Shown here in pieces: positions 19,330-37,585 of a stretch of 52,735 nt of DNA (the stretch's first letter is position 1; every line of letters starts with the position of its first letter). Position numbers and translations under genes: made by a program. Source of the stretch: Acidimicrobiales bacterium (lineage in GTDB: Bacteria; Actinomycetota; Acidimicrobiia; Acidimicrobiales; MedAcidi-G1); contig JAERSW010000001.1 of the NCBI GenBank assembly GCA_016845305.1, positions 1 through 52,735 on the forward strand. Direction: 5' to 3'. Under the pieces are notes generated by a model. The model saw only the letters and a list, made by a program, of their open reading frames with translations. It was not told the origin of the DNA and made no database searches.

Positions 19330-19336
19330 TCGACGC

Positions 19337-21101: not shown

Positions 21102-21102
21102 C

Positions 21103-21242
21103 CGCCTCTACTCAATGCGCATGCCGGAGATGGCCCGGGAGATCACCAGCTGCTGGATCTGCTCCGTGCCCTCGAAGATGTCGTGGATCTTCGCATCCCG
21201 ATGCCACCGCTCGACCGGCACCTCACGGGTGTAGCCGGCCCC
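21103..21242. repeat. Left attachment-site repeat (att, displaced copy)
   Basis: It matches 37446-37585 at 135 of 140 positions. The longest identical run, 56 bp (21187-21242), ends exactly where similarity stops, so strand exchange most likely took place within it. The five differences (21114, 21139, 21140, 21183, 21186) are all synonymous in the dehydrogenase frame. Confidence 0.9.
21108..21242 (-). pseudogene. Displaced 3' fragment of the acyl-CoA dehydrogenase gene
   Basis: It encodes the last 44 residues plus TAG of the dehydrogenase at 37451-38665 (AKIHDIFEGTEQIQ, ISGMRIE), identical in protein sequence. It has no start codon and the frame is lost beyond 21242. It is the native gene end stranded by island insertion. 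Confidence 0.85.
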
Positions 21243-21267
21243 GATGGACAGCCAGAGCAGATCAGTC

Positions 21268-21385
21268 GTCTCGCCGACAGGCGAGACACCGGATTATTCG
21301 GTTGTCACTGCCACCGTACGGCATGGCGGTGACAATGTCTGATCGCCCCGGACAGCGCTATCGGAGGCCGTATGGGCCTGTCCGG
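21268..21385. repeat. Cluster of inverted repeats at the island's left end
   Basis: Three inverted repeats lie inside 120 bp of gene-free DNA next to the attachment repeat: GTCTCGCC/GGCGAGAC (21268-21275, 21280-21287), a 12-bp arm with one mismatch TTGTCACTGCCA/TGGCGGTGACAA (21302-21313, 21324-21335), and CCGGACAG/CTGTCCGG (21348-21355, 21378-21385). Recombinase arm sites, oriT or a replication origin are candidates. Confidence 0.5.
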
Positions 21386-21412
21386 AAAACACCTGCACCA
21401 AGAGAGTCGTGG

Positions 21413-21868
21413 CTAGAGAATTGAGCCGCCCTTGGGCGTTGCCCGTGCCTTGGCGAGGTTCTTGGCGGTGTCCGGACGCTTGTGGGCCACCACCTTGACC
21501 CAGTACGGCGACTTGCCTTGGGTCATGTAGGCCTTGACGAGGTACGGCGTCGCCCCTACCAGAATCTCGGCGGCGCCTTCTCGGGTCGGGTTCCCCGTCT
21601 TCTTGGCTGGATGTACTCCTCCCATCGGGATGAGCGTGTTCTCCAACCTCAGGTAGGTCTCCATGCCGGACGGGAGGGGTACCGAGTTCTGCGAGTACTC
21701 GTAGAACCAGTTCCCCGCCTTGCTCTTCTTGCGGTCAATGCCGATCTGAAACGGCCTTTCAGCCGTAGTCGGATCAACGCCTACCTTCTCGAGGAATTCG
21801 AGACCCAGATCTAGTAGGCCTATTGGCTGCCCACTGGGATACAGAAACTCCAAGACCAGCTTTTCCAT
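21413..21868 (-). CDS. Hypothetical island protein
   Basis: A 151-aa protein of unknown family with no membrane segment or recognised motif. The sequence is mixed and plausible (MEKLVLEFLYPSGQPIG, NWFYEYSQNSVPL), and the C-terminal half is rich in Lys (YLVKAYMTQGKSPYWVKVVA). I begin at the ATG at 21868, preceded by AAGGGCGG; the upstream extension is antisense to the neighbouring nuclease gene. It is divergent from that nuclease gene (84 bp apart), so the two may act together, possibly as nuclease and partner. That is inference. Confidence 0.6.
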   Translation of the reverse strand: MEKLVLEFLYPSGQPIGLLDLGLEFLEKVGVDPTTAERPFQIGIDRKKSKAGNWFYEYSQNSVPLPSGMETYLRLENTLIPMGGVHPAKKTGNPTREGAAEILVGATPYLVKAYMTQGKSPYWVKVVAHKRPDTAKNLAKARATPKGGSIL

Positions 21869-21884
21869 GATTCCGCCCTTACCT

Positions 21885-21904
21885 GACTCTCCGGATACAG
21901 AGTC
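21885..21904. promoter_or_regulatory. Operator-like palindrome between divergent island genes
   Basis: GACTCT (21885-21890), 8 nt, AGAGTC (21899-21904) lies in the middle of the 84-bp gap between the genes at 21868 and 21953. A shared regulator site is the simplest reading. Confidence 0.35.
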
Positions 21905-21952
21905 AACTACACCTTCGAGCCTTCCTCCAGCGGAACCAGCCATGGAGACCAC

Positions 21953-22492
21953 ATGATCGCCACCAACTTCGACCAGTTCCGTAGATGGGCGCTCGGCGAT
22001 CTCGTTGACAACCTGACCCGAGCCACGTTCGCCGAGTGGCTCGTCGGGCAAGCTCTTGGCGTCATTGGCCCCGATGAGGTTCGGCTCGAGTGGGACGCTG
22101 CTGACTTTCGATATCGGGGGAAGCCAATCGAGGTGAAGGCGGGAGGCCGGGGACAGCGGTGGGGCCAGAACAAGCCGTCGACCGTCCGTTACGACATTGC
22201 CCGGCGGCAAGAAGCGTGGAACGCCTCGACGGGCGAATGGGAGCCGCATGATGTGCCGCTTCGCAATGCCGACGTGTACGTCTTCTGCTTGCACACCCCC
22301 GTCATGGCAACGAACGAAAACGTCGCCGACCTTTCCTGTTGGGAGTTTCGAGTCGTGGCTGCCGCCGTCCTCGACAACAAGTTGGGTGATCAGAAGACCG
22401 TTGGGATCACCACTCTCGACGGCCTCGCCAAGTCGGTCGGGTGGGATGGCCTCCGGACGGCTGTCGATGCCGCTCTTGGAGGCGGCAGTTAG
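21953..22492 (+). CDS. Putative PD-(D/E)XK nuclease-fold protein
   Basis: A 179-aa protein. The segment RLEWDAADFRYRGKPIEVKA (about 43-62) has the Asp, spacer and Glu-x-Lys pattern of restriction-endonuclease-like folds, after a helical N terminus (FAEWLVGQALGV). A conserved-looking aromatic and polar segment follows (NADVYVFCLHT). It could be a restriction-type nuclease, but the assignment rests on the short motif only. GGAGA precedes the ATG at 21953. Its stop overlaps by 4 bp the stop of the convergent Cys-rich gene, the last member of the defence-like operon. Confidence 0.6.
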   Translation: MIATNFDQFRRWALGDLVDNLTRATFAEWLVGQALGVIGPDEVRLEWDAADFRYRGKPIEVKAGGRGQRWGQNKPSTVRYDIARRQEAWNASTGEWEPHDVPLRNADVYVFCLHTPVMATNENVADLSCWEFRVVAAAVLDNKLGDQKTVGITTLDGLAKSVGWDGLRTAVDAALGGGS

Positions 22493-22743
22493 ACCCTCGG
22501 CGGTCGGCAGGTCTTACAGGGCTTTCGGCTCTGTGCGACCTCTGAGCCGAGGGAGACGGGCAGGATCGGTTCCGGATTGGCCGCTTTCGACTGGCCCTCG
22601 GCTAGCGCCGGGCAACTCGGGGTGGCGTGATACTTCATGCCGCCACCGGAGATGTAGACGGTCGGCATTGACTGCGCCTTGCAGCTCGAGCATGCGGTCG
22701 AGGGGTAGATCCCGTGCTTGCAGGTGTGTAGTTCGTCGGCCAT
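22489..22743 (-). CDS. Small Cys-rich (zinc-binding-like) protein
   Basis: An 84-aa protein with CKHG and CSSCK near the N terminus, then CPAL and CKTCRP near the C terminus, suggesting one or two zinc-ribbon-like sites. Function is unknown. Its ATG overlaps the stop of the DUF5655 gene by 1 nt (TGATG), so it is translationally coupled as the last gene of the leftward operon. It could serve as a DNA-binding accessory of the methylase-helicase system; that is inference from position. Confidence 0.65.
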   Translation of the reverse strand: MADELHTCKHGIYPSTACSSCKAQSMPTVYISGGGMKYHATPSCPALAEGQSKAANPEPILPVSLGSEVAQSRKPCKTCRPPRV

Positions 22744-23660
22744 CAGCTGGCCTCGTAGCTCTGCCGGAAGAGGGTGGCCGCCCGTTCGACGTCTTGGACG
22801 GAGTTGAGGGTCACTTCGAGGTCGCCGGGTGCGAGGTGGCCGATCTCTCGGACATCCCGGGTGAACCCTTCCTCTAGGTCAACCTCGTCGGGATCGACCT
22901 TGAGGTAGACGACCAGCCGTGTCTTCTGCATGACCGGGCAGACGCAGGCGAAGTTCTTGATCCTCCGAAAGGCGAAGTAGGTGTTCAGTGTTCGTTCTTG
23001 TACGTCCTCGCCCATGGCTAACAGGACGTCACGGAGCTCGCCATAGAGCTCCCGGAGGGCTGGGGCGGCCTGCTCCAACGATTCGCTGGCCGTCTTCCAC
23101 GTCTTGGGCTTGTCTGGCCCGGCGCCGTCAGACGCTCCACTGGTCGGTGACGAGGTCGACACAGAGTTCACCAGTTCGAGGATGAGGAAACCCTCGGCGT
23201 AGGTCCGATACCGGAGCAGGTCGATGTTTCGATCGATCTGTTGAACGGCGTGTTCGTCGTACCGGGTGAAGTCGCCGCCGATGCACAGCAGCCGGGGTGC
23301 CGTCCAGTCGATGCCGTCCGCTGCCTGCTGCCCGTAGGTCTTCTGGACCAACTGTTCAAACTCGGCTCGATGGTCGAGAAGCCAGTCGAGGTAGAAGAGG
23401 CCCTGATTGATGACGTTCTCAGACGAGTGCCGCTTGTACTCGACGATGACAGGGGCGTCGTTCTCGTCGAGGCCAAGCGTGTCGATCCGTCCCCGGTGGG
23501 TCTTGCCGGTCGAGTACTCGGTGGCCAAGAACCGGACAGCCAGCAGCGCCTCCATGTGATTTTCGACAAGGGCCTGTAGTTCCTTCTCAGCATCGAAGGT
23601 GCCGCCGTGCATCGGTTCGACGCCCGATGGCTGGACCCGGAAAAGCTTGATGTCGCTCAT
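22743..23660 (-). CDS. NucS/DUF91-like nuclease with DUF5655 domain
   Basis: A 305-aa two-domain protein. The N-terminal half has the pattern of DUF91/NucS-type PD-(D/E)XK nucleases: FDAEKELQALVENHMEALL, then GRIDTLGLDENDAPVIVEYK with catalytic-type Asp, Glu and Lys, then INQGLFYLDWLL. After a Ser/Gly-rich linker (about 170-185) the C-terminal about 115 residues match DUF5655 (LRELYGELRDVLLAMG, RIKNFACVCPVM, LVVYLKVDPDEVDLEEGF). It lies 9 bp downstream of another nuclease-fold gene in the same operon. A DNA nuclease is the likely role; the cognate structure or modification is unknown. Confidence 0.8.
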   Translation of the reverse strand: MSDIKLFRVQPSGVEPMHGGTFDAEKELQALVENHMEALLAVRFLATEYSTGKTHRGRIDTLGLDENDAPVIVEYKRHSSENVINQGLFYLDWLLDHRAEFEQLVQKTYGQQAADGIDWTAPRLLCIGGDFTRYDEHAVQQIDRNIDLLRYRTYAEGFLILELVNSVSTSSPTSGASDGAGPDKPKTWKTASESLEQAAPALRELYGELRDVLLAMGEDVQERTLNTYFAFRRIKNFACVCPVMQKTRLVVYLKVDPDEVDLEEGFTRDVREIGHLAPGDLEVTLNSVQDVERAATLFRQSYEAS

Positions 23661-23669
23661 CGCCCCCCC

Positions 23670-24551
23670 CTAGTCGTAGTACTGCTCGTGGGCCATCTCG
23701 AACAGACGCCGGAAGATCTCCCGATTCTCCTCGAACGTGGAGTGCGTGGCGACCGGCCGGTAGGCGCCCCGCCGGACCCGATAGGCATTTACGACGAGCG
23801 AGGATTGCTCCAACAGACGATCGGCCTCGTCGCCTCTCTGCAACTTGATCACGAGGTTGATCTGCTTGGGCTTCGGGTAGAAGACGACGTAGTTACAGGC
23901 CGTGCCGTTCCTTGCTAACCCGATGTACCGCTTCGTGAAGTTCAGGGTCACGCCCGGATCGACCGACTGGACTAGTGCGAGACAGTCGTCGACCAGCTTC
24001 ATCGTCTCTGGGGAGGCATTGGTCTCCCAGTAGGAACGGTCTGCGGCGACGATGTCGTCTTCTTCCTCATCGGCAAGGGTCTGGTGGTCGAGGATCCGGG
24101 TGAAGACAAGGGTCACCTCGTCGTCACCGACCTCGAGCGCCGCTACCTGAATGGCCACGATCGGGATGAAGCCGTTGAACAGGCCTATGACATTGAAGAA
24201 CCGTGCAGTGATCTCTTCGGCGACGATCACTGCCACGTGGTCGTACTGCGGATAGCGACGCCGTTCGAGGTCCCAGTACTCGATGGCCCGGATGATGTGC
24301 GACTCATCAGTTGCGCCAAGCTGCAGTTCGACCTCGTAACGAGTTCCGGTCTCGCTGTCGCTGAGCAGCAGGTCGAGCCGACCACCCTTCGGAAGCGTCT
24401 TCTCTGAAGCCCGAACATTCAGTGGTCCGAATCCGAGCAGCGAAGGGTCTTCGAGGATCCGTTCCTGCAGCCACTTCTCCGACAGGTTCGGATTCCCCTT
24501 CAAACGGATGGGGACCCTCTTTACGTACTTCACCCCAACCTCCTCATTCAT
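23670..24551 (-). CDS. NucS-like PD-(D/E)XK-fold protein with altered active site
   Basis: A 293-aa protein. The segment LSEKWLQERILEDPSLLGFG, then GGRLDLLLSD and RYEVELQLG, matches the start of NucS/DUF91-like nuclease folds, but the usual E-x-K is EVELQ, with no lysine at the expected place. The nuclease may therefore be divergent or inactive and act as a DNA- or end-sensing subunit. The rest (NVIGLFNGFIPIVAIQV and onward) is unrecognised. I start at ATG 24551 because it overlaps the helicase stop as ATGA; an ATG at 24566 would precede that junction. It is the third gene of the leftward operon. Confidence 0.7.
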   Translation of the reverse strand: MNEEVGVKYVKRVPIRLKGNPNLSEKWLQERILEDPSLLGFGPLNVRASEKTLPKGGRLDLLLSDSETGTRYEVELQLGATDESHIIRAIEYWDLERRRYPQYDHVAVIVAEEITARFFNVIGLFNGFIPIVAIQVAALEVGDDEVTLVFTRILDHQTLADEEEDDIVAADRSYWETNASPETMKLVDDCLALVQSVDPGVTLNFTKRYIGLARNGTACNYVVFYPKPKQINLVIKLQRGDEADRLLEQSSLVVNAYRVRRGAYRPVATHSTFEENREIFRRLFEMAHEQYYD

Positions 24552-27500
24552 GTCCGAGCCACCCATGCGACGACGTGGAGGTCGTCGCTGTTGATGGGCG
24601 GGAGCGGTTCTGGCTCCACCGGCGGCTCGAGCCCGTGCCGCTGAGCCACGACCTCCAGCGCACGAACCTGATCGGCAGGGTTCTCGGATGCTCCGAGAGC
24701 TATCCGAATGTCCTTGAGGACCCGATGGTCGTGCGGCGCTCGGTAGCTCTTGACGAGATTGTCGGCGACTCGCCGGTCCAGCACTCGTTCTCCGTGCTCA
24801 CGGACTAGGTCTGCAGCCCGTCGTGCAGCGAGCGGCAGCTCCGCTCGGACATCACCCTCGCTGTTCCACTGTTCAACGAGGTGGCCCCGGGCAAGGTCCC
24901 ACGCCCTAAAGGCCCGATCGAGCAGCCCGTCGTCTAGATCCCTCGGAGCCGGGGCCATAGTCGACGGTCCAGCCCGTTCGACTGTCGGCTCCTTCGGTGG
25001 CTGTGCCAGTCCGAGGCACCCATACACGGCCGTTCCGACGACCGCCTCGCCATCCTCACCGGTAGTGACCGAGCAGAACCGGGGACGTGGGTAGTCGCCC
25101 GCTCGAACACAGAACACGAAGCCTTCAGGGCCGTCTCCAGCGTCGACCACCGTCCCCGACCCGTAGGGCAGGGCCTTGATCTGCTCGGCAAGGTGGCTGT
25201 CTTCGAGTGCACGGCGAAGCATCTGGCGGTATTCCTCGCCGGAGAGCACGCCGAGCGGACCGTCCTCGTCGAAGAAGGTGGTGTCTCCGGCACGGACACG
25301 GTCGATGGCGGCCTTGGTGGTGTCGCCGTAGCTCACGTCTCCGGCGGCCACGCCGGGGAGGACCCTTCCGCCGCCGAATGTGGCGACGGCCTGCTTGAGC
25401 TTTCGGATCAGCCGGTCTTCGAGGCCGAGGAGGTCGTCGATCTGGTCGGCTGGGAAGAAACAGCGCATGTGAACCGTGTCGTGGAGGCAGCCGATGCGGT
25501 CGATTCGGCCGTGCCGTTGGACGAGTCGCATCGGGTTCCACGGCAGGTCGTAGTTCACGATGTGCCGTGCCTGCTGGAGGTTGACGCCTTCGGCGAGCAC
25601 GTCGGTGGCGATCACGATGTCGTACTGGTCCGGGTAGCCGTCTGGTGCCCCGGCGGTCTGTGGGGCGAATCCCCACATGGCGTCCTTCTGGGTGTCTTCC
25701 TTGCCCCGGGTCATGACGATCCGTCCCCGATAGTCGGCGAGTCGTGGATCGGTTTCGACTGTGGCGACGAGGTGGTCGTGGATCCATTGGACCGTGTCAG
25801 AGAAGTAGCTGAAGATCAGGACCTTGCGCCGGTTCTGGGTGTCGGCCTCGCCGATGCCGTCGGCGTTCGCCTCGGCGGCGACGACGGCGAGTTCGTCGAC
25901 GAGAGCGGCCAACTTCGGGTCGTCGCTCGGGGCGACCTTCTCGGCTTCTCCGGCGAAGAACAGGAAGAGGTCCCGGTCGGTCTCCAAGTCCCTGACCAGT
26001 GCGTCGGCGTCGTAGTCGGATGCCTCGTCCAACTCGCCGAAGTTTGAGTCGAGGAATGCGTCTACCTCTTCGACGTCGTCCGAGTCGGTGGCGAACCATT
26101 CCGTCAGGGCCGTCCCGGTTCCGACCTTGCCCTGATCCCTGATCAGCTCGATCAGCCCGTCGTGACCCGACGCCATCTTCCGACACGTGGAGGCAAACGC
26201 ATGGGCTGACGATTCGAAGCGCTTCAGGAGGCTGGACCGGTGGAGCTTCCCGAGATTGAGCTCGTGGTGGACGAGGTGCGACTGGTCGTGCCGGTACATC
26301 GACGGCTTGTACCGGGCCATGGCGAACACGCCCTCCGGTGGGGGTTCCCCCCAGTTGTAGGTGTACCCGTCGAGGGCGTGCTCGAGCTTGTGGAACAGCG
26401 TCGGGAAGGCCGCCGTGAGGTCGTAGTCGACACGGTCGACCTCGACGGCGGGGAAGACGATCTCTTCCTCGGTGCCGTCCGGGTGGCGGATCCGGTCGTG
26501 GGCGTAGTGGCGTTTCACGAACGGTCGTGTGCGGCGGACGCATACCGGGTCGATGATCTCGAATAGGTAGCTGGAGTCGAGCTGGTCGGGGTCTTCGGCG
26601 ACCGCTTCGTCGAACTTGGCTTTGATCGATGGGATTCCCTCGCCGAGCAGGGCGGCGTCGTTGCGGATGAAGAGCCGGAGGAGTTCGTAGACGTCTAAGA
26701 GGGTGTTGTTGACCGGGGTGGCCGTCAGCAGGACGAGGTCCTTCTGCGGCGTTCCGGCCAAGAGATTTCGCATGGCGTCGGCCTGCAGGGTTCCGGGGTT
26801 GCGGAGGTGGTGGGCCTCGTCGATCACGACCATCTTGTAGTGAGCCGGGTCGTGCAGCAGCTTGGTGGTCGCTGCCGATGGTTCGAGTTCCGGGTTGAGT
26901 CGGTGATCGCCGACGAGTTCCTGAAAGGAGAGACATTCGACAGCCAAGCCACGGTCGTGCAGGTACTTGTTCCATGTGCTGTCTCGGAGCGCCGCCGGGC
27001 AAATGACGACGACCCGTTGGAGCCGGTTCTTCACGGCCGGTTCGATGAGCGCTCCGGCCACGAATGTCTTGCCGAGTCCGACTTCGTCGGCGATCAGCAC
27101 GCCGCTGTGCCGGTCCAAGTACTGGGAGGCCCGGTAGACGCCAGCCTTCTGGAAGTCGGTCAGGTAATTGATCTCCTGCCCGTAGTAGGCCCGCTCGGCT
27201 TCGATCTCAACGCCGTACTGCTCCCACAACATCCGTAGGAAGACGAGCTTCGGTGGTTGCGCTTCGAACGCCGCCTCGTAGATCCCGGCAAGGTCGAAGT
27301 CCTCGGCCTCGCACCACAGGTCCTTGTACCAGTCGATGACATCACCGACGATGCCCGGCTCGTACCGGGCCAAGTTGAGCTCGAGGTTGGAGGCCAACCC
27401 GGCACCGGTGAAGTTCGACGACCCGGCCAGCACGCTCGGATCTCCGGCAGTGACGATGAACGCCTTGGCGTGGAGGAATCGGCTGGTGACCCGTCTGACG

Positions 27501-27910
27501 TCGACCCGGCCGCTTCGCAGCCAGTCGACGAGCCGCCGTGCATCTCGGTAGGCCTTGGGGCTGAACCCGGAATGGTCCCGATCCATCCGAAGGTTTCGGA
27601 GATGCCGATCGAGCGCTTCACGAAGGTTCTTGGCAGCGATCCTCTCCGGCGTCGCCGACCCGCCGAGCGGCCGGACCCGGTGTTCCGGAACGGTCGGCTC
27701 GGCACCGATCAGGAGCCGCACCGACCCGCACTGCTCGAGCTCGTCAGCGATCAGGGCAAACCCGGCCGGATTGAAGTAGGCGGTAGCTATCGACAGCTCG
27801 ACCGGATCAGCGAGGCTCGTGCGGAGGTGGCCGAGCCGTTCGTTGATAGCCGCAGCGGTCTGCTCCCCTGCCCGGTTCGTCGACCACTCAGGCTTCCCCA
27901 CAACGGTCAC
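24548..27910 (-). CDS. PLD-domain SNF2/RapA-type helicase
   Basis: A protein of about 1120 aa. Residues about 20-190 form a phospholipase D-like nuclease domain with the HxK and GSSN signature (FLHAKAFIVTAGDPSVLAGS; His147, Lys149). A superfamily 2 helicase follows: ADEVGLGKT (about 275-282), IDEAHHLRN (about 363-371), LLTATPVNN, and the C-terminal lobe ATDVLAEGVNLQQARHIVNY, then RHGRIDRIG. The C-terminal 250 residues are unassigned. Such proteins translocate on duplex DNA in phage-defence loci. I start at GTG 27910 because it overlaps the methyltransferase stop as GTGA; a GTG at 27919 is an alternative. DrmD and Mokosh proteins are the nearest functional comparisons, but not clear matches. 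Confidence 0.9.
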   Translation of the reverse strand: MTVVGKPEWSTNRAGEQTAAAINERLGHLRTSLADPVELSIATAYFNPAGFALIADELEQCGSVRLLIGAEPTVPEHRVRPLGGSATPERIAAKNLREALDRHLRNLRMDRDHSGFSPKAYRDARRLVDWLRSGRVDVRRVTSRFLHAKAFIVTAGDPSVLAGSSNFTGAGLASNLELNLARYEPGIVGDVIDWYKDLWCEAEDFDLAGIYEAAFEAQPPKLVFLRMLWEQYGVEIEAERAYYGQEINYLTDFQKAGVYRASQYLDRHSGVLIADEVGLGKTFVAGALIEPAVKNRLQRVVVICPAALRDSTWNKYLHDRGLAVECLSFQELVGDHRLNPELEPSAATTKLLHDPAHYKMVVIDEAHHLRNPGTLQADAMRNLLAGTPQKDLVLLTATPVNNTLLDVYELLRLFIRNDAALLGEGIPSIKAKFDEAVAEDPDQLDSSYLFEIIDPVCVRRTRPFVKRHYAHDRIRHPDGTEEEIVFPAVEVDRVDYDLTAAFPTLFHKLEHALDGYTYNWGEPPPEGVFAMARYKPSMYRHDQSHLVHHELNLGKLHRSSLLKRFESSAHAFASTCRKMASGHDGLIELIRDQGKVGTGTALTEWFATDSDDVEEVDAFLDSNFGELDEASDYDADALVRDLETDRDLFLFFAGEAEKVAPSDDPKLAALVDELAVVAAEANADGIGEADTQNRRKVLIFSYFSDTVQWIHDHLVATVETDPRLADYRGRIVMTRGKEDTQKDAMWGFAPQTAGAPDGYPDQYDIVIATDVLAEGVNLQQARHIVNYDLPWNPMRLVQRHGRIDRIGCLHDTVHMRCFFPADQIDDLLGLEDRLIRKLKQAVATFGGGRVLPGVAAGDVSYGDTTKAAIDRVRAGDTTFFDEDGPLGVLSGEEYRQMLRRALEDSHLAEQIKALPYGSGTVVDAGDGPEGFVFCVRAGDYPRPRFCSVTTGEDGEAVVGTAVYGCLGLAQPPKEPTVERAGPSTMAPAPRDLDDGLLDRAFRAWDLARGHLVEQWNSEGDVRAELPLAARRAADLVREHGERVLDRRVADNLVKSYRAPHDHRVLKDIRIALGASENPADQVRALEVVAQRHGLEPPVEPEPLPPINSDDLHVVAWVART

Positions 27911-30900
27911 GACGCCCACCGCTCGAAGTGCTCGAGGACGGCATCCAGTCGAGGCTGGTGATCCCAGCCCCTGTGAAACGTCTCGAAGATGACGGTCACG
28001 TCGTCGGCATCGAGGCCATAGGCGTGAGCGGCCAATGCGTCCAGTTCGTCAATCGACCGCTGTCTTTCTTCCGGTTCGGTGCAGCTCCCGACCGGCACGC
28101 CAACACCAGATGCCCAGTCAGCAAATCGACCGTCAACTGCCGCCAGCCTCCCCGCCACTTCCACGATCCGGTCCGAAACCCGGTCAGCAATCTCTTCAGG
28201 GAACGGAAGTCCCAAGAAAATGTGCAGGTTGACGTTCAGTTCCACGAATCGTCGGGCATACCAGTCGAAGACTCGGCTAGACATCACTCCAACGACTACG
28301 GCTTCGTCGGCTGCACCCCCGCTGACTTGGGCCAGATAGGGGGCCTTGTTCGTGGTTACCACCTCAGGTGGGAGCAACGCCGTGACCAAGGTCCGCTGAT
28401 TGGTGCGGTTGGTCACGTCTCTGAATGCGATCCGAGGCTTGCGGCATGGAAGCGTCAAGTAGTCGTCGATGAATGACCTCGAGAACATCCGCCAGACTGA
28501 GTTGGACCTCGTCGAGGCGGTTCGCCGCCTCGCCTGAAGAACCTCTGTGATGTAGTCCGGGTCGGCCCATGCATAGACCACCGGTGCGCCGTCACTTTCG
28601 TGTACCGACGGCTGCCACAGGTTGAACGACGCTCCTCCGTAGACAGGCCAGAAACCAGCGGTCGACGGCGGATCAAAAACCATATGTGGCCTGCCCTGCG
28701 TGGCATGCAAGTCACCCAAGACGGGTACGAACCTTGAACTCACAGGCGATTCATCGAATCGAGGATGCCGCCTCATCTTGAGGAACACCCGGCCAGCAGC
28801 CGATCCCGGGATAAGCGGAAAGGCCGCCCCGGTCGTCCACTGGAGGAGGCCGGACGCCGGGAGAATGACCGGATCCTCAGCGATCCCTGCCCGGTAGGAG
28901 GCGAGCGAGTCATACGGGCCACGGATGTCAACCTCGTCGTCAGGTTCGTCGGTCTTGCGGATCGAGACCAGCCCAATCGTGTACCGGTGTTCCATTCCGT
29001 CGAAGAGCCAGCCGCCCGTGTTCGTTCCGGTTGTGACTTCCATGAAATCCCCGGACTGGAGGACTCGGGTACGCCAGTCCGCCATGCCTGCGGCCCCGAG
29101 CGCCACCCGAGGCAGGACCACTCCGATGGTTCCTCGATCGGCGACCAACTGCAGGTACCGCCATGCGAACGCCTTGTAGAGGTCGGGGTCACCAGAGCCG
29201 AGGTCGGCCGGGCCCGAACGGAGAACCGACCGCATCCTCTCGGTCGAGGCGAGTTCCTCTTCGAACTCATGGGCAAGGTCGGGCCGTTCGGTTCTGAGGC
29301 GCTCGATTGCCTGATGCATCTCGTTGACCTTGAGCGATCGGAGGCCCGGGAAACGCAGACCCCACCATCCGTCAACGTCAGCCTTCACCTTCTCCCATGG
29401 TGGATTGCCGAGGATGCAGTCAAACCCCGGCCGGTCCCGGAGGAACACCTCTGGGAACGCCACCGGAAAGTGCAGCGGCTGGAGGTCGTCGATGACGCCA
29501 CGGACCTCGCCACCTTCTCGGATTCGGTCGGCGTCATCGAGGGCAGCCACGACGGTCATCAGGTCCACCGACGTCAACTGCGACCGGGCGACCACGAAGA
29601 GGTCGAGGATGGTGGCGAGAGGTGCCAGAACGTCCCGAGCCTCGATGGTGGCTTCCCGGGCGGCCTCGATGTCGTCGGTCGTGGCGTCGGCGACCGTGGC
29701 GAGCCGGACCATGGCGGGACCGGCCTTCTCGAGTAGGTCCGTGAGGTCCCCGATCCCCATGACGGGCGTCCCTGTCGGGCTGGTCTCCAGCAGCTCAACT
29801 GCCTCGACGAGGGTTCCTATCCCGGTGAGGGTGTTGCCGACGGTCAGGTTGTGGTCAAGGAATGTGAGGGGCAGGCCGGGCACGAACGTGTGGATCCAGA
29901 TGGACAGCCTCGCCAGTTCGGCGGAGATGGGGTTGAGGTCGACTCCGTAGATGCACCGTCGGGCGATGAGGCGTCGGATGAGGGCAACGTCTTCGATCGT
30001 CGACCCGACGAGAACGGCATGCTCGCTGCCGAGAGCGGATCGGAGCTGGTTGACGGCTGCTTCACGAAGTGTCGAGAGGGTCCGCTGCACTCCGGGGACT
30101 GGCCGGTCGGCGAGGAACGCTGAGAGGCGTGCCTCGATGTGGTCGACGGCAGCGACAAGGAAGTGCGCTGAGCCCATGGCGATGTCCACGCACCGGAAGT
30201 CGAAGAACTGGTCGGCAGCGGCCTTCTCGTCTCCGCTATCGAGGAGTGCCGTGATCCGGTCGAGATGGTCGTCGAGGGCCGGGTGCAGGGCGTTACGGAG
30301 CAGGTGGTCGACGGCGAATGGTTTGGTGAAGTAGCTGCCGGTGGACTTGCGTACCCCGGATCGGTTGTGGAAGTAGACGGTTCCTTCTTCGACCTCGACC
30401 GTGTCGTCGTCCCCGGCCGGGGCGTAGACCTCTCGTCCCTTCTCCTTGGTGACCGTCAGGTCGGCCGGTGCGATGCCGAGTTCGGATTCGAGGAGGCCTT
30501 CGTAGATGGTGCCGAACTCCCGTACCGAGAGCGAGGCGAAGTCCACGGGACCAGTCACGCCGTCCGGGCCTTCGTCCACGAGAAGGGCGTCGAGGACGGG
30601 ACCGAACTCGGCGTTGGTGAGGGTGAGCGCTGCGACAGCAGCACCACCGTCGGACGTGTCGTCGAAGAGGCCTCCTCCGTAGGGGGGCACGCCCCAGTCC
30701 CGGTTTCCGGACCGGACGGCGTCGACCAGTTGGTCGACTCCCTGCCAAAGGTCGCTGGCCGTGTCGTCGAAGCCGTCGGCGTCCCGTTGTGCCAAGTGCC
30801 GGGCCAACTGCTTGAGCGAGTGGGTCGTGTACCGGTCGTTGATCCGATACGGGAGGAGGCCCTTGTCTTCGCCGTAGGCGATGAACAGGAGCCGGAAGAG

Positions 30901-31971
30901 CACGAGCATGGTCTGCTCGTAAGCGAGGGCGAGGTCGTCGTCGCCGAGGGGCTGAGAGAGTCTCCGTCCGATGGCCTCGGCGAGTGCCGGGACGGCTTCG
31001 AAATAGACCCGTTCTCTGAGCCGTGATCCGAGGTCGGCGGCGTGGTCGGCCGACGCCTCGAGGATCTCGGTCAGAGTCCCGTCGTCGGCGAGCGCTGCAG
31101 CGCCGAAGACCAGCGGAAGGTAGCCGACGGTGTCGTCGGACAGCAGCGACAGGTCGAGTCCGAAGTTGGTCGACGCCCGACCCTTCCGACCAACCCCAAC
31201 CTCTGGGCGTGCCGAGTAGAGCCGGATGTGCGAGCCTCGGGTGAGGACCACCCAGTTGAGGTGCTCCCGGTCAGCCATGGCGAGAGCGTGCGAGACCGGG
31301 CTTGTGCCGCCGAAGCGGTCACTGTTGCCTTCGAACGTCTCGTCCTGTTCGAGGAAGACCGCTACCGCACGGCGAGAACCTTGGTCGGTGAGAACGGCGG
31401 TGAGGTCAGGTGCCGACTCGATGTCGAAGCCGAGGGCTTGAATGAGGTCCCGGTCCCGATACGAACGGATCGCCGCCCCTGTCGCCGTGGCCTTCCCCCA
31501 GTCGGGGCGCTGGCGCACGCCCGTAATGAGCTCGTGGGCGGCGAGGAGCCCGTCGTTGCGGACTCCGGGGATCTCGGACTCGACGTCGTCGAGGGCCGCC
31601 CAGAGGTACCGCTCGGCGGTCAACCAATCGGCCTTGCCGAGGGCTTCAGCGCAGACCGCCTCGGCGGCGGCCTTTCCAACTCCGACCCGGACGGGCGGCG
31701 TCTCGCCGCCCGGCCCGCAGACGCAGCATCGGTCGGCAGCCGGGCCGTAACGGACGATGAGGACGACCGGGTAGGCCTGTCTGCCCCAGAGTTCCTTCCA
31801 GACGGCCCGGATGTCGGTGATCCGGGGTTCGTCTGGGCAGGTCAGGACCCGGACCTGAACCTGACTGGTGCTGCTCAGGAAGTAACTGTCAATGGTCCAA
31901 TCTCCCGGTGCCTTTTCGGGCAGATTGGACCACGGCCGATCGTCGATCTCGCTAAGAAAAACCCCCACCAC
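27907..31971 (-). CDS. Large Eco57I/PglX-type adenine-specific DNA methyltransferase
   Basis: A protein of 1354 aa. The methyltransferase core has GSYFTKP (545-551), the AdoMet-binding motif VDIAMGSAHFL (595-605) and the catalytic motif NPPW (856-859), so it methylates adenine N6. The first 500 residues carry no recognisable domain, and the last 350 resemble the target-recognition and helical regions of type IIG/BREX PglX-like enzymes. I set the start at GTG 31971 because TACTGT lies exactly 6 nt upstream (leaderless). The open frame extends 83 codons further, but with Trp/Arg/Gly-rich, non-coding-like sequence. It heads the operon and would protect self DNA, or act jointly with the helicase. 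Confidence 0.9.
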   Translation of the reverse strand: MVGVFLSEIDDRPWSNLPEKAPGDWTIDSYFLSSTSQVQVRVLTCPDEPRITDIRAVWKELWGRQAYPVVLIVRYGPAADRCCVCGPGGETPPVRVGVGKAAAEAVCAEALGKADWLTAERYLWAALDDVESEIPGVRNDGLLAAHELITGVRQRPDWGKATATGAAIRSYRDRDLIQALGFDIESAPDLTAVLTDQGSRRAVAVFLEQDETFEGNSDRFGGTSPVSHALAMADREHLNWVVLTRGSHIRLYSARPEVGVGRKGRASTNFGLDLSLLSDDTVGYLPLVFGAAALADDGTLTEILEASADHAADLGSRLRERVYFEAVPALAEAIGRRLSQPLGDDDLALAYEQTMLVLFRLLFIAYGEDKGLLPYRINDRYTTHSLKQLARHLAQRDADGFDDTASDLWQGVDQLVDAVRSGNRDWGVPPYGGGLFDDTSDGGAAVAALTLTNAEFGPVLDALLVDEGPDGVTGPVDFASLSVREFGTIYEGLLESELGIAPADLTVTKEKGREVYAPAGDDDTVEVEEGTVYFHNRSGVRKSTGSYFTKPFAVDHLLRNALHPALDDHLDRITALLDSGDEKAAADQFFDFRCVDIAMGSAHFLVAAVDHIEARLSAFLADRPVPGVQRTLSTLREAAVNQLRSALGSEHAVLVGSTIEDVALIRRLIARRCIYGVDLNPISAELARLSIWIHTFVPGLPLTFLDHNLTVGNTLTGIGTLVEAVELLETSPTGTPVMGIGDLTDLLEKAGPAMVRLATVADATTDDIEAAREATIEARDVLAPLATILDLFVVARSQLTSVDLMTVVAALDDADRIREGGEVRGVIDDLQPLHFPVAFPEVFLRDRPGFDCILGNPPWEKVKADVDGWWGLRFPGLRSLKVNEMHQAIERLRTERPDLAHEFEEELASTERMRSVLRSGPADLGSGDPDLYKAFAWRYLQLVADRGTIGVVLPRVALGAAGMADWRTRVLQSGDFMEVTTGTNTGGWLFDGMEHRYTIGLVSIRKTDEPDDEVDIRGPYDSLASYRAGIAEDPVILPASGLLQWTTGAAFPLIPGSAAGRVFLKMRRHPRFDESPVSSRFVPVLGDLHATQGRPHMVFDPPSTAGFWPVYGGASFNLWQPSVHESDGAPVVYAWADPDYITEVLQARRRTASTRSNSVWRMFSRSFIDDYLTLPCRKPRIAFRDVTNRTNQRTLVTALLPPEVVTTNKAPYLAQVSGGAADEAVVVGVMSSRVFDWYARRFVELNVNLHIFLGLPFPEEIADRVSDRIVEVAGRLAAVDGRFADWASGVGVPVGSCTEPEERQRSIDELDALAAHAYGLDADDVTVIFETFHRGWDHQPRLDAVLEHFERWAS
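31893..31932. repeat. Long inverted repeat inside the 5' coding end of the methyltransferase
   Basis: Perfect 11-bp arms TGGTCCAATCT (31893-31903) and AGATTGGACCA (31922-31932), extended by CCCG/CGGG with one bulged base, give a stem of about 15 bp with a 9-nt loop. It starts about 39 nt into the reading frame. A protein-binding site or an mRNA structure limiting early translation are both possible. Confidence 0.5.
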
Positions 31972-31983
31972 GGGACGACAGTA
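31972..31983 (-). promoter_or_regulatory. Leaderless -10 box of the methyltransferase operon
   Basis: On the minus strand TACTGT (31983-31978) is followed by CGTCCC and then GTG (31971). The 6-nt spacing equals that of other leaderless genes in the window and decides the start codon. Confidence 0.5.
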
Positions 31984-32283
31984 CTTCTCTGCCGTGACGG
32001 GTGCCCGAGGAGTGTCACAGCAGCCTCGAGGCAGCAGCCAGTTCGTGCTGATGGCGAGCGGCGGCCCGTTGTTGTCTGGTTTCCACCTGCCATAGACACG
32101 GCCGTGGCCGCTTCGCCACCCACCGTGACCTCTCTGTGGCCAATGGCCACGGAGCGTGAGCCGACAGCGAGCCGACACGACTCGACTGGGAATCCACGTT
32201 GCTGGTGACGGCGAGTACACACATCTCGGGCAGGGGGATGAGGGGCCCCACGTGGGGGCCTACCGATTCCCGAGGAGATTCTC
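31984..32283. other. 300-bp control region between the defence-like operon and the xis-rep genes
   Basis: No gene is visible. It holds the palindrome GTGGCC-AAT-GGCCAC (32136-32150), two copies of GAGCCGACA exactly 11 bp apart (32158-32166 and 32169-32177), and the perfect 12-bp palindrome CCCCACGTGGGG (32246-32257), with GAGGAGA just before the xis GTG. The helical-turn-spaced repeats could be iterons of a replication origin, and the palindromes operators for the divergent units. Confidence 0.45.
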
Positions 32284-32472
32284 GTGGAGACCGACATCCC
32301 CCTGATCACCGCATCCGAGGCCGCTGAACGGCTTGGCTGCACCGAGAAGATGGTCCGCAAGATGGCCAACGACGGACGGCTCCCGTCGGTGAAGGTCGGA
32401 GCCCTTCTGCGGTTCCGACCTCTAGACATCGATGCGTTCGTGGCAACGAACCTTCGCCCAGCGGTCCGGTGA
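32284..32472 (+). CDS. Excisionase-family HTH DNA-binding protein
   Basis: A 62-aa protein that is almost entirely a MerR/Xis-type winged helix (LITASEAAERLGCTEKMVRK, then LPSVKVGALLRFRPLDIDAF). Proteins of this kind act as recombination directionality factors or repressors in actinobacterial integrative elements. The GTG start at 32284 follows a GAGGAGA ribosome binding site. The stop overlaps the ATG of the replication gene by 1 nt (TGATG), so both are made together, as in the rep-xis-int modules of AICEs. Confidence 0.8.
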   Translation: METDIPLITASEAAERLGCTEKMVRKMANDGRLPSVKVGALLRFRPLDIDAFVATNLRPAVR

Positions 32473-34124
32473 TGGGTTCACTCAGTGACGCCGAACTCTT
32501 CGTGCTGGCCGACCAGCTGGCCCTGCCACCTGACCGGCTGGTTCCGCCGAATGACTGGGAGGCCTCGGCTCCGTTCACCCCGTTGTTTCTCGACAGCGAC
32601 AACGACAAAGCGGGTTACGTCGACTCGCTGGTCGACGCATGGCTCTCGGGGCGGCCCTTCTGCTGCAACGTGCGGTCCGAAGTCGTGGTCGTCGACATCG
32701 ACCACAGCGACCAGCCTTACCTGCAGGACTTCAGGCAGCTGATCGATGAGTCCGGGTTTCCGGTCCTCGAAGTGGCATCGGGTGGGATGAACCGCCCCAA
32801 CCGGCACTTCTATCTCTGGGCCCCTGATGAATCCGCTCGGGACCCGCTCGTCCACCAGCTGAAGTCGATCCGCCGTCAGCCGGTCCGAGTCGGCAACGGC
32901 CAGAGGATTCGGCTACCCGGGGTCCGTCACCGCCAGATGCGACAACGGGCTCTCCCTGTGGACGACCAGCAGGCGAGGGCCTTCCTCAAGGCGGTCACTC
33001 CAAGTGTCGAGACCCTGTGGTCCCAAGCACGCCCGTCGACTCGGGAAGCTGCCGACGCCCAGCCACCAGAGGATCGAAGCAGCTGGGATCAGCACGTCAT
33101 CTTTCAGATGGTCCTCGATGGGCTTTCTGCCGGTCAGATCGTGTGCCTCGCCCTTCACGTGGGCGAGACGTTCTCGACTAAGGCTCGGGATCTTGCCAAA
33201 CAGAGCCCTCAGGGAGCGCTCCGCTATCTCCTCGGCAGTATCCGTAGCGCCGAGCGGCTCTATGCGAAGAGCTATTGGGGTGAAGCCCCGATGGCTCGGA
33301 CCCGAGCTGACGCCGACTGGATGCTGGGCGGCTTCGCCGCCGCTGTAGCGGCAGCGGATCCGGCGATGTTCGGCGGGATGCGGGACGCTCGGGTGCTGGC
33401 CGGTGTAGTCGACCTCTGTCGAGAGCAGTCGACATTCGAACGCCCGATGGGCGTTCGGTGTCTGGCTGATCGTGTCGGTGTCGGAACTGAGAGTGCGGTA
33501 CGTCGTCTCGGCCGACTGGTTGAGGGCGGCTGGATCTCCCGGACTGACGTCCGGGGTCCGGCATGTGGCTACCGGCTCGAAACCCGAAAGCTCTGGACAC
33601 TTCTAGGTACAACGGTTGGGGGGTGTGTCCCTAGGAGTGTTCCGCTTCCTCGGTTTTCCCGACCTCACCTCTTCTGTCACGGCTTCGGAAACGAGTCTGG
33701 ATGGAGGGCCTATCAGGCCCTCCAAGCTCTCGGCGGCGAGGCCGGTACGGGCCAGATTGCTGCTGAGGCCCACCTAAGGGCTGGCGACCTCGGTCTGGTG
33801 CTGAATCGTCTCTCAGACCTCGGCGTGGTTGAAAAGGTCCGACACGGCGTGTGGCGCCTCACAGGCGCCGATGTCGACCTCCTCGCCGAGCAATGGGGCG
33901 CAGACGTGGTTCTCAAGAATCGGCGACGTCGGATGGAGATGGAACAGATCGCCTACGGCCAGCTCCAGCTGGCTCGACTGGTCGAGTCCGGGCTGATCAC
34001 CGACGCCTCGGACCTTGTTGTCCGAAACTCGTGGTCAGCGACCGATTCGTGGACTGGAGAGGTCGTGCGCTTCGACGACCTTCGTCGAGGCGCCCAGCAG
34101 GGCGGCCGTGGAGGGGTTCAGTGA
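32472..34124 (+). CDS. Primase-like (AEP) replication protein
   Basis: A 550-aa protein. The N-terminal 200 residues have the archaeo-eukaryotic primase pattern: VVVVDIDHSD with Asp75 and Asp77 as metal ligands, and SGGMNRPNRHFYLW with His112. The C-terminal half contains winged-helix segments (VRCLADRVGVGTESAVRRLG; ALGGEAGTGQIAAEAHLRAG) that could bind the origin. No helicase domain follows, so host helicase would be needed. Rep proteins of this Prim-Pol type replace RepSA in some actinobacterial integrative elements. It is coupled at both ends (TGATG with xis, GTGA with the next gene). Confidence 0.7.
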   Translation: MGSLSDAELFVLADQLALPPDRLVPPNDWEASAPFTPLFLDSDNDKAGYVDSLVDAWLSGRPFCCNVRSEVVVVDIDHSDQPYLQDFRQLIDESGFPVLEVASGGMNRPNRHFYLWAPDESARDPLVHQLKSIRRQPVRVGNGQRIRLPGVRHRQMRQRALPVDDQQARAFLKAVTPSVETLWSQARPSTREAADAQPPEDRSSWDQHVIFQMVLDGLSAGQIVCLALHVGETFSTKARDLAKQSPQGALRYLLGSIRSAERLYAKSYWGEAPMARTRADADWMLGGFAAAVAAADPAMFGGMRDARVLAGVVDLCREQSTFERPMGVRCLADRVGVGTESAVRRLGRLVEGGWISRTDVRGPACGYRLETRKLWTLLGTTVGGCVPRSVPLPRFSRPHLFCHGFGNESGWRAYQALQALGGEAGTGQIAAEAHLRAGDLGLVLNRLSDLGVVEKVRHGVWRLTGADVDLLAEQWGADVVLKNRRRRMEMEQIAYGQLQLARLVESGLITDASDLVVRNSWSATDSWTGEVVRFDDLRRGAQQGGRGGVQ

Positions 34125-34384
34125 GCCGCCGAAAGTCTGGGCCGTACAGCTCGGATGGCCATGCGATGAACATTCAGCGACGACCCGGTGGGCGGGGTCG
34201 GAAGCCGCAGAAGCGGACCCGGAGAGAGGCGCCGGTGACCACTCGACGGCTTGACCGTGAGGAAGGAGTCGATTGCGTGGGCTGTGGTCGCCGGATCTTC
34301 AAGACGGTGAAGAGAAACGGCACTTCTGGGGTGCCGTTCGAGATCCAACGGTGCGGCCCTTGCTGGCGGGACCGAAACAAGTGA
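34121..34384 (+). CDS. Small zinc-ribbon protein
   Basis: An 87-aa protein with a basic N-terminal half (GGRGRKPQKRTRRE) and a CVGC ... CGPC pair (about residues 61-82) typical of a zinc ribbon. The start is the GTG at 34121, which overlaps the rep stop as GTGA and follows GGAGGGG. A nucleic-acid-binding accessory of the replication module is likely from position; no family name is recognised. Confidence 0.65.
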   Translation: MSRRKSGPYSSDGHAMNIQRRPGGRGRKPQKRTRREAPVTTRRLDREEGVDCVGCGRRIFKTVKRNGTSGVPFEIQRCGPCWRDRNK

Positions 34385-34415
34385 GATCAGGCCTTCAACA
34401 AAGGGCGGATTCGAC

Positions 34416-35390
34416 CTAGAGCACGTCGACCTCGGAATCATTGGTCTTGTCGCCATACGAACACCTCGTCCAATAGTCGCAATAGTGGGGCGTGCAGTAA
34501 GGCGACTCCGGGTTGGGCAGATACGGCCCACCGGCGTCGATCAACGTCGCCAGACGAGACGCTTGGTCCATCGTGGCGGCGATCTGGTCAGCGGACCGAG
34601 GAGCCTCGATCCGCCAGAACACGTCAGGCTGGGACGGAACCCTCTTGCCGTCCTCCTCGGCGGCCTGCACGGCGGCCGCCCAGTCCTCCATGACCGTGGC
34701 GCACTCCATCAGCAGCACGTCGTAGACGAACCGGACGTTGCGGTCGGCCACGGACACGCCGCCGATCTCGCCGAGCTCGGCGAGGGCATGCAGGTAGAAG
34801 GCGGCCTGCGGCGTCTTGTGCGCCAAGTACTTGTCTGGCCTCGGCTTGCCGAGCACACACTTGTGGTCGACGATCAGGACGTCCCCGGTCGGGATGTGCT
34901 CGAGGATCAGGTCCGGCGACCCGTGCAGGACCCAGTCCGGGTGGCCCTCCCAGTCGAGGTTGAACGTGTGCTCGAGGCCCAACACCCGGTACTCGTCCGG
35001 CCAGTACAGGCCCGCAGCGTGGTAGTAGCGGACCGCCGACCGGATCATGTCCATGGCCTGACCCATGTTCAAGACGACCTCGTCCTGCCGGGACGACTGG
35101 GGCCGGAACGTCCAGCTGAAGTGCTCGTCGGCCCGCTCGACCTCGTTCCACAGGGACTCGATGGCGACCCGCAGGAACCCTTCGACGTCGGACGGGTCGG
35201 CGGCGGCCGGTTCGGACATCGGGACCATGCGGCCCCGGTAGTAGTCCTCGTGGGCGGCGTGGATCGCCGTCCCGATCGCCCGAACGATCCCCGACGAGTA
35301 CGGGATCTCCGGGTCGAGGTCGTACGTCAGGCGCTGCTGGCAGATCGTCGCCGTGTTCAGCGTCGACTGGCGCATCTTACGGCGAGGCAT
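34416..35390 (-). CDS. Cas4/RecB-like PD-(D/E)XK exonuclease
   Basis: A 324-aa protein of the PDDEXK_1 group: GTAIHAAHEDYY (motif I His), LHGSPDLILEH and VLIVDHKCV (Asp, Asp-x-Lys), and the QxxxY motif QAAFYLHAL. Cys17 near the N terminus and three cysteines near the C terminus (PYCTPHYCDYWTRC) resemble the 4Fe-4S ligand set of Cas4 and AddB nucleases. No cas genes or repeat array lie nearby. It probably processes DNA ends for the island's replication or recombination. The ATG at 35390 is preceded by GAGGGA. Confidence 0.8.
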   Translation of the reverse strand: MPRRKMRQSTLNTATICQQRLTYDLDPEIPYSSGIVRAIGTAIHAAHEDYYRGRMVPMSEPAAADPSDVEGFLRVAIESLWNEVERADEHFSWTFRPQSSRQDEVVLNMGQAMDMIRSAVRYYHAAGLYWPDEYRVLGLEHTFNLDWEGHPDWVLHGSPDLILEHIPTGDVLIVDHKCVLGKPRPDKYLAHKTPQAAFYLHALAELGEIGGVSVADRNVRFVYDVLLMECATVMEDWAAAVQAAEEDGKRVPSQPDVFWRIEAPRSADQIAATMDQASRLATLIDAGGPYLPNPESPYCTPHYCDYWTRCSYGDKTNDSEVDVL

Positions 35391-35451
35391 CAGCTACGTC
35401 CCTCTTCGGTGCGGTTCCGATCGGGTCGTGACGTCCTACTGGAGCTCGGGC

Positions 35452-36213
35452 TCAGGTGAACCAGTCCCGGGTAGGCCAAGCGGCCTCCGTAAAGCGGCCC
35501 GTCTCGTTGAGAAGCTCATGGTGGATGGCATCTCCGAGAACGCCGCCACCGGTCAGGGTCCATGCGGTCAGGCAATTGAACAGTCGCCGTTGGTTAGCGG
35601 CCCGGTTGGCCCGGGTCTCGCCGCCCAGCTCTGGCTGGTACGGCTCCTCGGGGAACCATTTCCGAACCATGTCCTCGAGGGGGCGGAACTCAGAGCCAGA
35701 AGGAGTGATCATGGCCATCCCCTCGTTGGAGATGTACCGGAGCCCGACTGTCAGCTCGTGTTCCAGATCTTCGGAGAGCTGGAAGCGGTGCCGTGGCTGG
35801 AAGGCGTCGAGAACGGCGGCGCCATAGAAGACGTGCTCAGCCTTCTGGTGGAAGGTCAGTCCGTACTCGTCGAAGCTACGGCTGTCGTAGGCGGCCGCCA
35901 TGCCGCAGAGGAGAGCCATGAACTCGAGCCAATGGGCCAACTCGTCGATGTCGAAGTTCCGCATCTGGTGGATGGGTACGGACACATCGGCTTCCCATCG
36001 CAAAGCGGTGAGCGCTTCGTCGACGTCGATGTAGAAGGCACGTGTGACCTCTTGGCTAACGAGCGTGTATCCGCCGTCCTCAGACCAGCCAAAGACGACG
36101 TTCGGATCCCAGCCGCTGCCCACGGACCGGACAGAAACGCCGCCCCGATCTCCTTGGATAGAAGGAGTTGGTTTCCGGCGTGCCGCCTGCCGGAACCATT
36201 CGATGATTCCCAT
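35452..36213 (-). CDS. Hypothetical island protein
   Basis: A 253-aa protein of no recognised family with no membrane segment. It starts MGIIEWFRQAARRK and contains HWLEFMALLCGMAAAYD and FQLSEDLEHELTVGLRYI. I chose the ATG at 36213 because GGAGAACAAC precedes it; the longer frame from 36465 is poorly coding-like and runs into the integrase 3' end. It lies between the nuclease and the integrase, both also leftward, and could be co-regulated with them. Confidence 0.6.
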   Translation of the reverse strand: MGIIEWFRQAARRKPTPSIQGDRGGVSVRSVGSGWDPNVVFGWSEDGGYTLVSQEVTRAFYIDVDEALTALRWEADVSVPIHQMRNFDIDELAHWLEFMALLCGMAAAYDSRSFDEYGLTFHQKAEHVFYGAAVLDAFQPRHRFQLSEDLEHELTVGLRYISNEGMAMITPSGSEFRPLEDMVRKWFPEEPYQPELGGETRANRAANQRRLFNCLTAWTLTGGGVLGDAIHHELLNETGRFTEAAWPTRDWFT

Positions 36214-36323
36214 GTTGTTCTCCGCTCGCCTAGCGGCCTCCGTCATTGCCCGAAGGGTTCGGCCAGACAGTACGAGAGTTCCGTGACATGCGCCCGGGAG
36301 TCGCTTTGTCGGCGACATTCTCC

Positions 36324-36340
36324 GAAGGGTTTCTCCCTTC
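36324..36340. repeat. Hairpin in the integrase/35452 intergenic region
   Basis: GAAGGG, 5 nt, CCCTTC forms a 6-bp perfect stem 65 bp downstream of the integrase stop in the 191-bp gap before the next gene start. It has no T-run on the integrase-coding strand, so termination is only a possibility. Confidence 0.25.
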
Positions 36341-36404
36341 TTCCCCGTGGCCCGCTTATGGACCCCGGTTGCCGCACACACCACCTCCACGGGTTTCCCG
36401 GCCG

Positions 36405-37361
36405 TCAGAGCCGGAGCGCCCCAACTGCTTGGAGCGCCCGGGTCGGATTGGGGGCGAGATAGCACCGCACCGTGGTCTCCGGGCTGCCGTGTCGAAGCGC
36501 CATCTGGATGGTCCTCAGGTCGATGCCGTTGCCGTCAAGGAATCCGGCGAAGCTTCGACGCAGGTCGTGGGGTGCAACGTGGCCGATCCCGGCGAGTCGG
36601 GCCCGGTATGCGAGCACCGATCGGACGAGGGAGATCGATGACCGATCGGCCCAGTCGAACCAGTATCGGCTTGCCGATCCGTTCAGGCCACCGATGCAGT
36701 TCGACCGGCAGAACACCGGCCAGTCGGCCCGCACCTCTTCCCGTGTGCAGGTGTTGGCCAACTGCCGCCATTGCTGCAGGGCCTGTCGGGCCTGTTCTGC
36801 AATGGCGACGTCGGCGACCTTGCGGCCCTTGCCGACCAATCGGATCCGGCCGATGTCGAGGTCCACGGCCCCCCACGTGAGCCCGATCAGCTCTGCGGCC
36901 CTCAGGCCGCTGAGCAGCGCCGTCGTCAGCAGCGCCCGGTCCCGGACACCCCTCGGCGTGTCGTCACAGGTAGCCAACAGATGTCGGGCCTCGACATCGG
37001 TTAGCCACCGGCCGGGCCGTACCCGGCGGCACGGCAGGACCACGGACCGCAGAGCGGGCCGATGATCGACCGCCACGTGGCCACGGTCATGCGCCCACCC
37101 GTAGAAGGCTGACAGGGCGGTGCGGTACCGCTTGAGGGTGTTGGCGGCCAGCGTGCGGCGACGCCCCTCAGCGTCGAGCAGGACCACGTCACAGACCTCC
37201 CGGGACGTGGCAGCCATCGGATCGTCGAACCGGTCAGCGAGCTCTGAGAGCACCGGCCGGTACGTGGTGACCGTGGTGTTCGTGTAGTCGGACTGGTCGA
37301 GCCACTGCTCGACCAGAGCATCAAAGCCGAGCCGTTCGGGCTGGCTGTTCAGGGTTGTCAT
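36405..37361 (-). CDS. int: Tyrosine recombinase (island integrase)
   Basis: A 318-aa phage-type integrase. The N-terminal core-binding domain (about 10-100) has SAM-like helices (YTNTTVTTYRPVLSELADRF). The catalytic domain has Arg154 (LLSGLRAAEL), Lys178/181 (VGKGRK), His265 and Arg268 (HDLRRS), His291 and the nucleophile Tyr301 (RHGSPETTVRCYL), so all key residues are intact. The ATG at 37361 follows GGAGGA. Its start is 84 bp from the right attachment repeat. It is a simple, short integrase, as in AICEs and satellite elements. Confidence 0.93.
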   Translation of the reverse strand: MTTLNSQPERLGFDALVEQWLDQSDYTNTTVTTYRPVLSELADRFDDPMAATSREVCDVVLLDAEGRRRTLAANTLKRYRTALSAFYGWAHDRGHVAVDHRPALRSVVLPCRRVRPGRWLTDVEARHLLATCDDTPRGVRDRALLTTALLSGLRAAELIGLTWGAVDLDIGRIRLVGKGRKVADVAIAEQARQALQQWRQLANTCTREEVRADWPVFCRSNCIGGLNGSASRYWFDWADRSSISLVRSVLAYRARLAGIGHVAPHDLRRSFAGFLDGNGIDLRTIQMALRHGSPETTVRCYLAPNPTRALQAVGALRL

Positions 37362-37445
37362 GGGCGGGTCCTCCGGACCTGTCGGTCCGGTGCCTCAACC
37401 GAAGTCGAGAACCCAACGGCGACCCGTCAGGCCGGTCTCGACATG

Positions 37446-37585
37446 CGCCTCTACTCGATGCGCATGCCGGAGATGGCCCGGCTGATCACCAGCTGCTGGA
37501 TCTGCTCCGTGCCCTCGAAGATGTCATGAATCTTCGCATCCCGATGCCACCGCTCGACCGGCACCTCACGGGTGTAGCCGGCCCC
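37446..37585. repeat. Right attachment-site repeat (restores the dehydrogenase gene end)
   Basis: It is the partner of 21103-21242 (135/140 identical). It forms the 3' end of the intact acyl-CoA dehydrogenase gene, so the island supplied a new gene end with the same protein sequence. The 56-bp perfectly matched part (37530-37585) is the likely crossover zone. Confidence 0.9.

Follow-up and report, generated by a model that had tools for sequence, protein, structure and literature searches.

Gene content of the ACAD locus

The stretch of DNA analysed here, the window, is 52,735 nucleotides of contig JAERSW010000001.1 from an Acidimicrobiales bacterium. It contains an intact gene for an acyl-CoA dehydrogenase (ACAD) and, beside it, an island of ~16 kb whose GC content is 0.64, compared to 0.73 for both positions 1-15000 and those from 38001 onward. 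The island lies between two copies of the ACAD 3' end, and its tyrosine integrase gene occupies the terminus adjoining the intact ACAD, starting 89 bp from the ACAD stop (Table 1). The integrase is an open frame with a full match to the catalytic domain.

Table 1. Features at the ACAD locus, in window positions
Feature	Position	Strand	Basis
Displaced copy of the ACAD 3' end (putative far att site, attL)	21103..21242	-	repeat comparison
DUF5655 protein, candidate defence family PDC-S18	22743..23660	-	Pfam, PADLOC
Candidate defence protein	23670..24566	-	weak PDC-S11 match
PLD-SNF2 helicase	24548..27919	-	Pfam, PADLOC; under curated DrmD cut-off
Type IIG restriction enzyme-methyltransferase	27907..32220	-	PADLOC 817.6 bits; Eco57I (Pfam)
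Excisionase-like HTH protein, 62 aa	32284..32472	+	above curated cut-offs of TIGR01764 and HTH_17
551-aa protein, no family above cut-off	32469..34124	+	Pfam, PHROGs
PD-(D/E)XK nuclease	34416..35390	-	PF12705
337-aa ORF, no family found	35452..36465	-	Pfam, PADLOC, PHROGs
Tyrosine integrase, 318 aa	36405..37361	-	PF00589
3' end of intact ACAD (putative near att site, attR)	37446..37585	-	crossover expected within 37530-37585
Intact ACAD gene, 404 aa	37451..38665	-	four ACAD Pfam domains

No phage structural or packaging gene was recognised in ten island proteins scanned with Pfam and five with PHROGs, and the excisionase-like protein gave a weak PHROGs match to a terminase small subunit. Likewise, no conjugation translocase was recognised in the ten proteins scanned with Pfam, of which the 551-aa and 337-aa proteins belong to no recognised family; the 551-aa protein is possibly a replication protein. 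The nearest plasmid relative of the type IIG enzyme, among the matches listed, is from Rhodococcus (48% identity). A DISARM defence system was considered for the helicase and rejected, the DrmD match scoring 164.9 bits against a curated cut-off of 610.

The two copies of the ACAD 3' end

As originally predicted, a direct repeat of 140 nt brackets the island, its copies identical at 135 of 140 positions (96%) and each encoding the last 44 residues of the ACAD and the stop. The five mismatches (21114/37457, 21139/37482, 21140/37483, 21183/37526 and 21186/37529) are spread over four codons and are all synonymous, including the two-base serine swap (AGC/TCC) on which the prediction had drawn; five random substitutions left the peptide unaltered in 0.06% of 200,000 trials. 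The replacement end leaves the protein unchanged, as expected for icd-type gene-restoring islands, and the claim that the enzyme had been left intact is supported. BLAST found no third copy of the repeat in the window apart from short chance matches, and a single 44-nt match, within an ACAD paralogue, in the remaining genome. An assembly duplication of one stretch was rejected because the copies differ and the window contains no N.

All five mismatches lie 3' of an identical 56-bp block (37530-37585 and 21187-21242), the distance by which the repeat extends inward of the last mismatch, and to judge from the sequence the crossover should fall inside this block. The last 105 nt of the working gene are identical to genome G003, while the gene around its positions 945-1035 is only 73-77% like G003 and its upstream part is usually nearest to genome G005. 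G003 agrees with the right-hand copy at every one of the five differing sites. The right-hand copy, which lies in the working gene, thus appears to fit an imported end, with moderate support, since G005 agrees with the left-hand copy at two of these sites and with the right-hand copy at three.

Distribution in the genus and the left flank

The island is sporadic: both the window integrase and a doubled ACAD end were found in one of 17 genomes of the genus, that of the window itself. In 11 other genomes the ACAD end of the orthologue is single (in G004 it is cut by its contig); G007 gave only weak, paralogue-like matches to the ACAD end and four genomes gave no match. An orthologue of the window gene at 13103-15109 directly adjoins the ACAD in eight of ten fetched genus regions; one known gene stands between them in G015 and several in G014. 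The ACAD neighbourhood is uninterrupted in relatives compared at genus level.

Immediately left of the island, positions 18045-21102 carry genes for an Hjc-like nuclease and a NYN protein and are also accessory. No alignment of this stretch (18.05-21.10 kb) to G014 or G015 was obtained, and of 48 family genomes the other 47 lack the NYN gene. The originally predicted empty site, joining the NYN gene directly to the ACAD, was not found, as the NYN stretch is accessory too; what adjoins the ACAD in the relatives is the 13103-15109 orthologue. The history of the locus accordingly holds more than one clean event, with at least one further step. Neither an excised circle nor a same-species empty site was seen.

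Recurrence of ACAD 3'-end copies in other genomes

When the repeat was scanned against 397 genomes of the order, second, shorter copies of the ACAD end were indicated; as best matches were listed with two candidates per genome, the number of genomes with a second copy is a lower bound. Short 3'-end copies were found in 11 of the 16 regions fetched after the scan. We measured 11 gene-copy pairs from different genomes, the window and G060 among them. The inner boundary of the copy lies 77-79 nt from the stop, at codon 380, in eight of these pairs, and at 84 nt in G595, 135 nt in the window (codon 361, not the common codon 380) and 150 nt in G029. Where gene and copy share a contig, the copy is downstream of the gene (9/9). 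Differences between the two ends are wholly synonymous in four pairs (window, G210, G592 and G584) and include one or two amino-acid differences in the other seven.

Both copies and an integrase adjoining the ACAD were found on one contig in G210, G431 and G060. A 366-aa integrase adjoins the ACAD between the copies in G210 and G431, the G210 element also carrying a TrwC-type relaxase; in G060 the same two ends are present and the integrase is broken, and in G638 the two ends are split between two contigs and the integrase is partial. A profile search found no integrase between the copies in four of the pairs (G592, G584, G240 and G595) or in G029. By locus, L084, L085, L086, L087 (in G029) and L095 lack an integrase by profile and are probably scars of lost elements. 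G042, G316 and G615 were searched for the exact empty sites of G210 and G431; in them the gene and its fragment align, as does the upstream side for G431, and the downstream flank does not.

Several side observations accompany these loci. The ACAD-end copies at L084, L085, L086 and L095 have roughly the usual boundary. At L087, in G029, a 3.1-kb insert with VWA and carbonic anhydrase genes lies between copies forming a 150-nt repeat, and the copy and part of this insert are also present, at a contig edge, in G033 (L094). A DNA methyltransferase gene stands near the far 3'-end copy at L091 (G483, 257-2383) and is a candidate DNA-modification cargo. Two candidates were set aside: at L031 (G024, 2568-2981) an identical 105-bp stretch is repeated across a run of N, an artefact of scaffolding that looks like a true case, and L083 (G605) contains two full ACAD genes.

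An integrase clade associated with ACAD genes

The 397 genomes of the order were searched for relatives of the G210 integrase, and a tree of 41 integrases was built. Fourteen of them form a clade with 100/100 support, and 12 of these 14 lie just downstream of an ACAD, on the same strand and starting about 65-135 bp past its stop (the position of L107, which has a broken start, is approximate). As for the two exceptions, L109 is truncated where its contig ends and L108 lies away from any ACAD. By contrast, no ACAD was found in the flanks, of at most 1.5 kb, of 16 more distant integrases from the same search (0/16; Fisher 1e-6, kinship ignored). Three partial integrase loci adjoining an ACAD (in G573, G520 and G570) and L089 (in G638) were left out of the count because they had been selected by position or come upon by chance; L035 was kept in the tree and omitted from the profile.

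L102 and L107 lie beside ACAD paralogues that are 36-39% identical to the window ACAD, both of which carry the motif ITQIYEGTNQIQR, so that the original guess that paralogues can serve holds for this clade in two cases. In 257 genomes of the class, six of seven similar loci from other orders, which were selected for profile scores exceeding 270 bits and are absent from the tree, adjoin an ACAD, L185 showing only the ACAD end at a contig edge and L184 (44% identity) having no ACAD. Near-complete clade members score 365-611 bits with the clade profile, and a phylum sample of 396 genomes gave no match above 201 bits outside the class. In viral contigs the profile found six loci at 32-34%; identities of the clade integrase were below 28% both to plasmids (10 matches listed of 47) and to phage (10 listed of 436). 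At L172 (G449, 3330-4427) the integrase adjoining the ACAD is followed, 2 kb further on, by a second and distant one (28%), possibly as part of stacked elements.

The integrase of the window stands outside this clade, with 31% identity to the G210 enzyme, and groups with L032 (99/93), both on long branches. Some match to it was found in 373 of 395 genomes, and among the best 29 loci besides the window (identity at most 37%) none had an ACAD in its flanks. The original prediction that relatives of the integrase adjoin ACAD 3' ends therefore failed for the window's own enzyme (0/29) but held for a different clade (12/14). Since the window integrase has no close relative, its site preference is judged from one case. 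A search of viral contigs returned no relatives, 12 phage records matched at no more than 36% identity, plasmid matches reached at most 33% among 20 listed of 1551, and a search of genome contigs gave two distant matches; a degenerate pattern of the ACAD end found no match in viral contigs. As the window integrase is outside the clade and lies at the same gene end, two lineages use the ACAD end, and their inner boundaries differ by 19 codons.

Origin of the island

These observations lend support to the original prediction of a site-specific island with the ACAD 3' end as attB, and the segment between the copies is very probably an integrative element put there by its own tyrosine integrase. 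The integrase would insert the element at the ACAD 3' end by a crossover within coding sequence, in the 56-bp identical block. The attP of the element would bring a replacement for everything 3' of the crossover, so that the gene at the integrase end would stay intact, and the displaced native end would stay as a fragment at the far end (21103-21242).

An origin of the repeat in segmental duplication or homologous recombination, with no part played by an integrase, is very improbable: the identity is indeed long (140 nt) and most other cases do not reach as deep into the gene, but only 89 bp separate the integrase from the gene end, the island has a sporadic distribution and a lower GC content, and the arrangement recurs with a common boundary in many genomes. 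A composite history is a more serious rival, one we regard as quite conceivable though somewhat short of probable, in which an older element, represented by the 18.05-21.10 kb remnant with its NYN gene, used the site before the present island did, so that an earlier event may have given rise to the left copy. The stretch fails to align with G014 and G015, its NYN gene is present in one of 48 family genomes, and its GC content (0.69) is intermediate between those of the island and the flanks; however, a standing tandem pair would be expected to leave a third copy of the ACAD end to the left of 21103, where none was found.

The presence of 3'-end copies lacking an integrase at L084, L085, L086, L087 and L095 indicates that decay at the ACAD site is common, and the window element might itself be a fossil, fixed in place and immobile. 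We consider this unlikely, given the open 318-aa frame of its integrase with a full catalytic-domain match and the presence of an excisionase-like gene. We infer that the integrative element may still be active and capable of excision.

In this bacterial class the ACAD 3' end serves repeatedly as an attB, mostly for the separate, well-supported integrase clade; the distantly related integrase of the window acts at nearly the same position, and use of the site extends far beyond what the window alone reveals. The chance is about even that two distant tyrosine-integrase lineages came separately to target the conserved C-terminal codons of ACAD genes, that one of them diversified across the class and switches between paralogues, that a protein-family motif serves as a portable attB, and that repeated integration trades ACAD C-termini between species, the last being suggested by the chimeric window gene. 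A catabolic-enzyme gene joins those coding-sequence attachment sites at which a clade of dedicated integrases and a shared crossover boundary can be demonstrated. The site predicts the positions of islands in the class, gives tools for poorly cultured groups a natural attB, and points to a route by which enzyme ends could pass between species with the protein little or not changed.

Comparison with known integrative systems

Integrative elements of actinomycetes of the pSAM2/SLP1 type carry an integrase, an excisionase, a replication protein and a translocase and use a tRNA gene as their site, while in E. coli the element e14 and phage 21 integrate into icd. The window island shares with the pSAM2/SLP1 type an integrase, an excisionase-like gene and a possible replication protein, but no translocase was recognised in the proteins scanned and its site is not a tRNA gene.

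Mapping with TIGER/Islander has placed 43.4% of ~1.76 million islands in coding sequences (PMC12424338), and these are, like the present one, integrase-carrying. The text of that paper does not name ACAD as a target, though database entries with such a site may exist; no ACAD attachment site appears in the accessible portions of PMC7466150 and PMC12884075. A description of an ACAD-end attB was not found in the searchable literature, and the site may be new. An ACAD gene is the target of a Mycobacterium abscessus prophage, which, according to the available part of PMC9934374, occupies attB-21 in MAB_1851, a probable FadE. That prophage differs in using a serine integrase and in entering at about position 280 of 1140 bp, where the gene is likely inactivated and its end is not replaced.

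The closest parallel is provided by 50icd and 61icd, icd-integrating elements of E. coli described in the accessible text of PMC10111431, which favours the analogy with icd drawn in the original prediction. The target there is isocitrate dehydrogenase rather than an ACAD, the hosts are unrelated, and no phage structural gene was recognised in the proteins of the window island that were scanned. In both systems the integrase targets a site within a protein-coding gene, and the attP carries a replacement end with a long block of att identity that restores the gene; mechanistically this is gene-restoring integration of the already known icd type.
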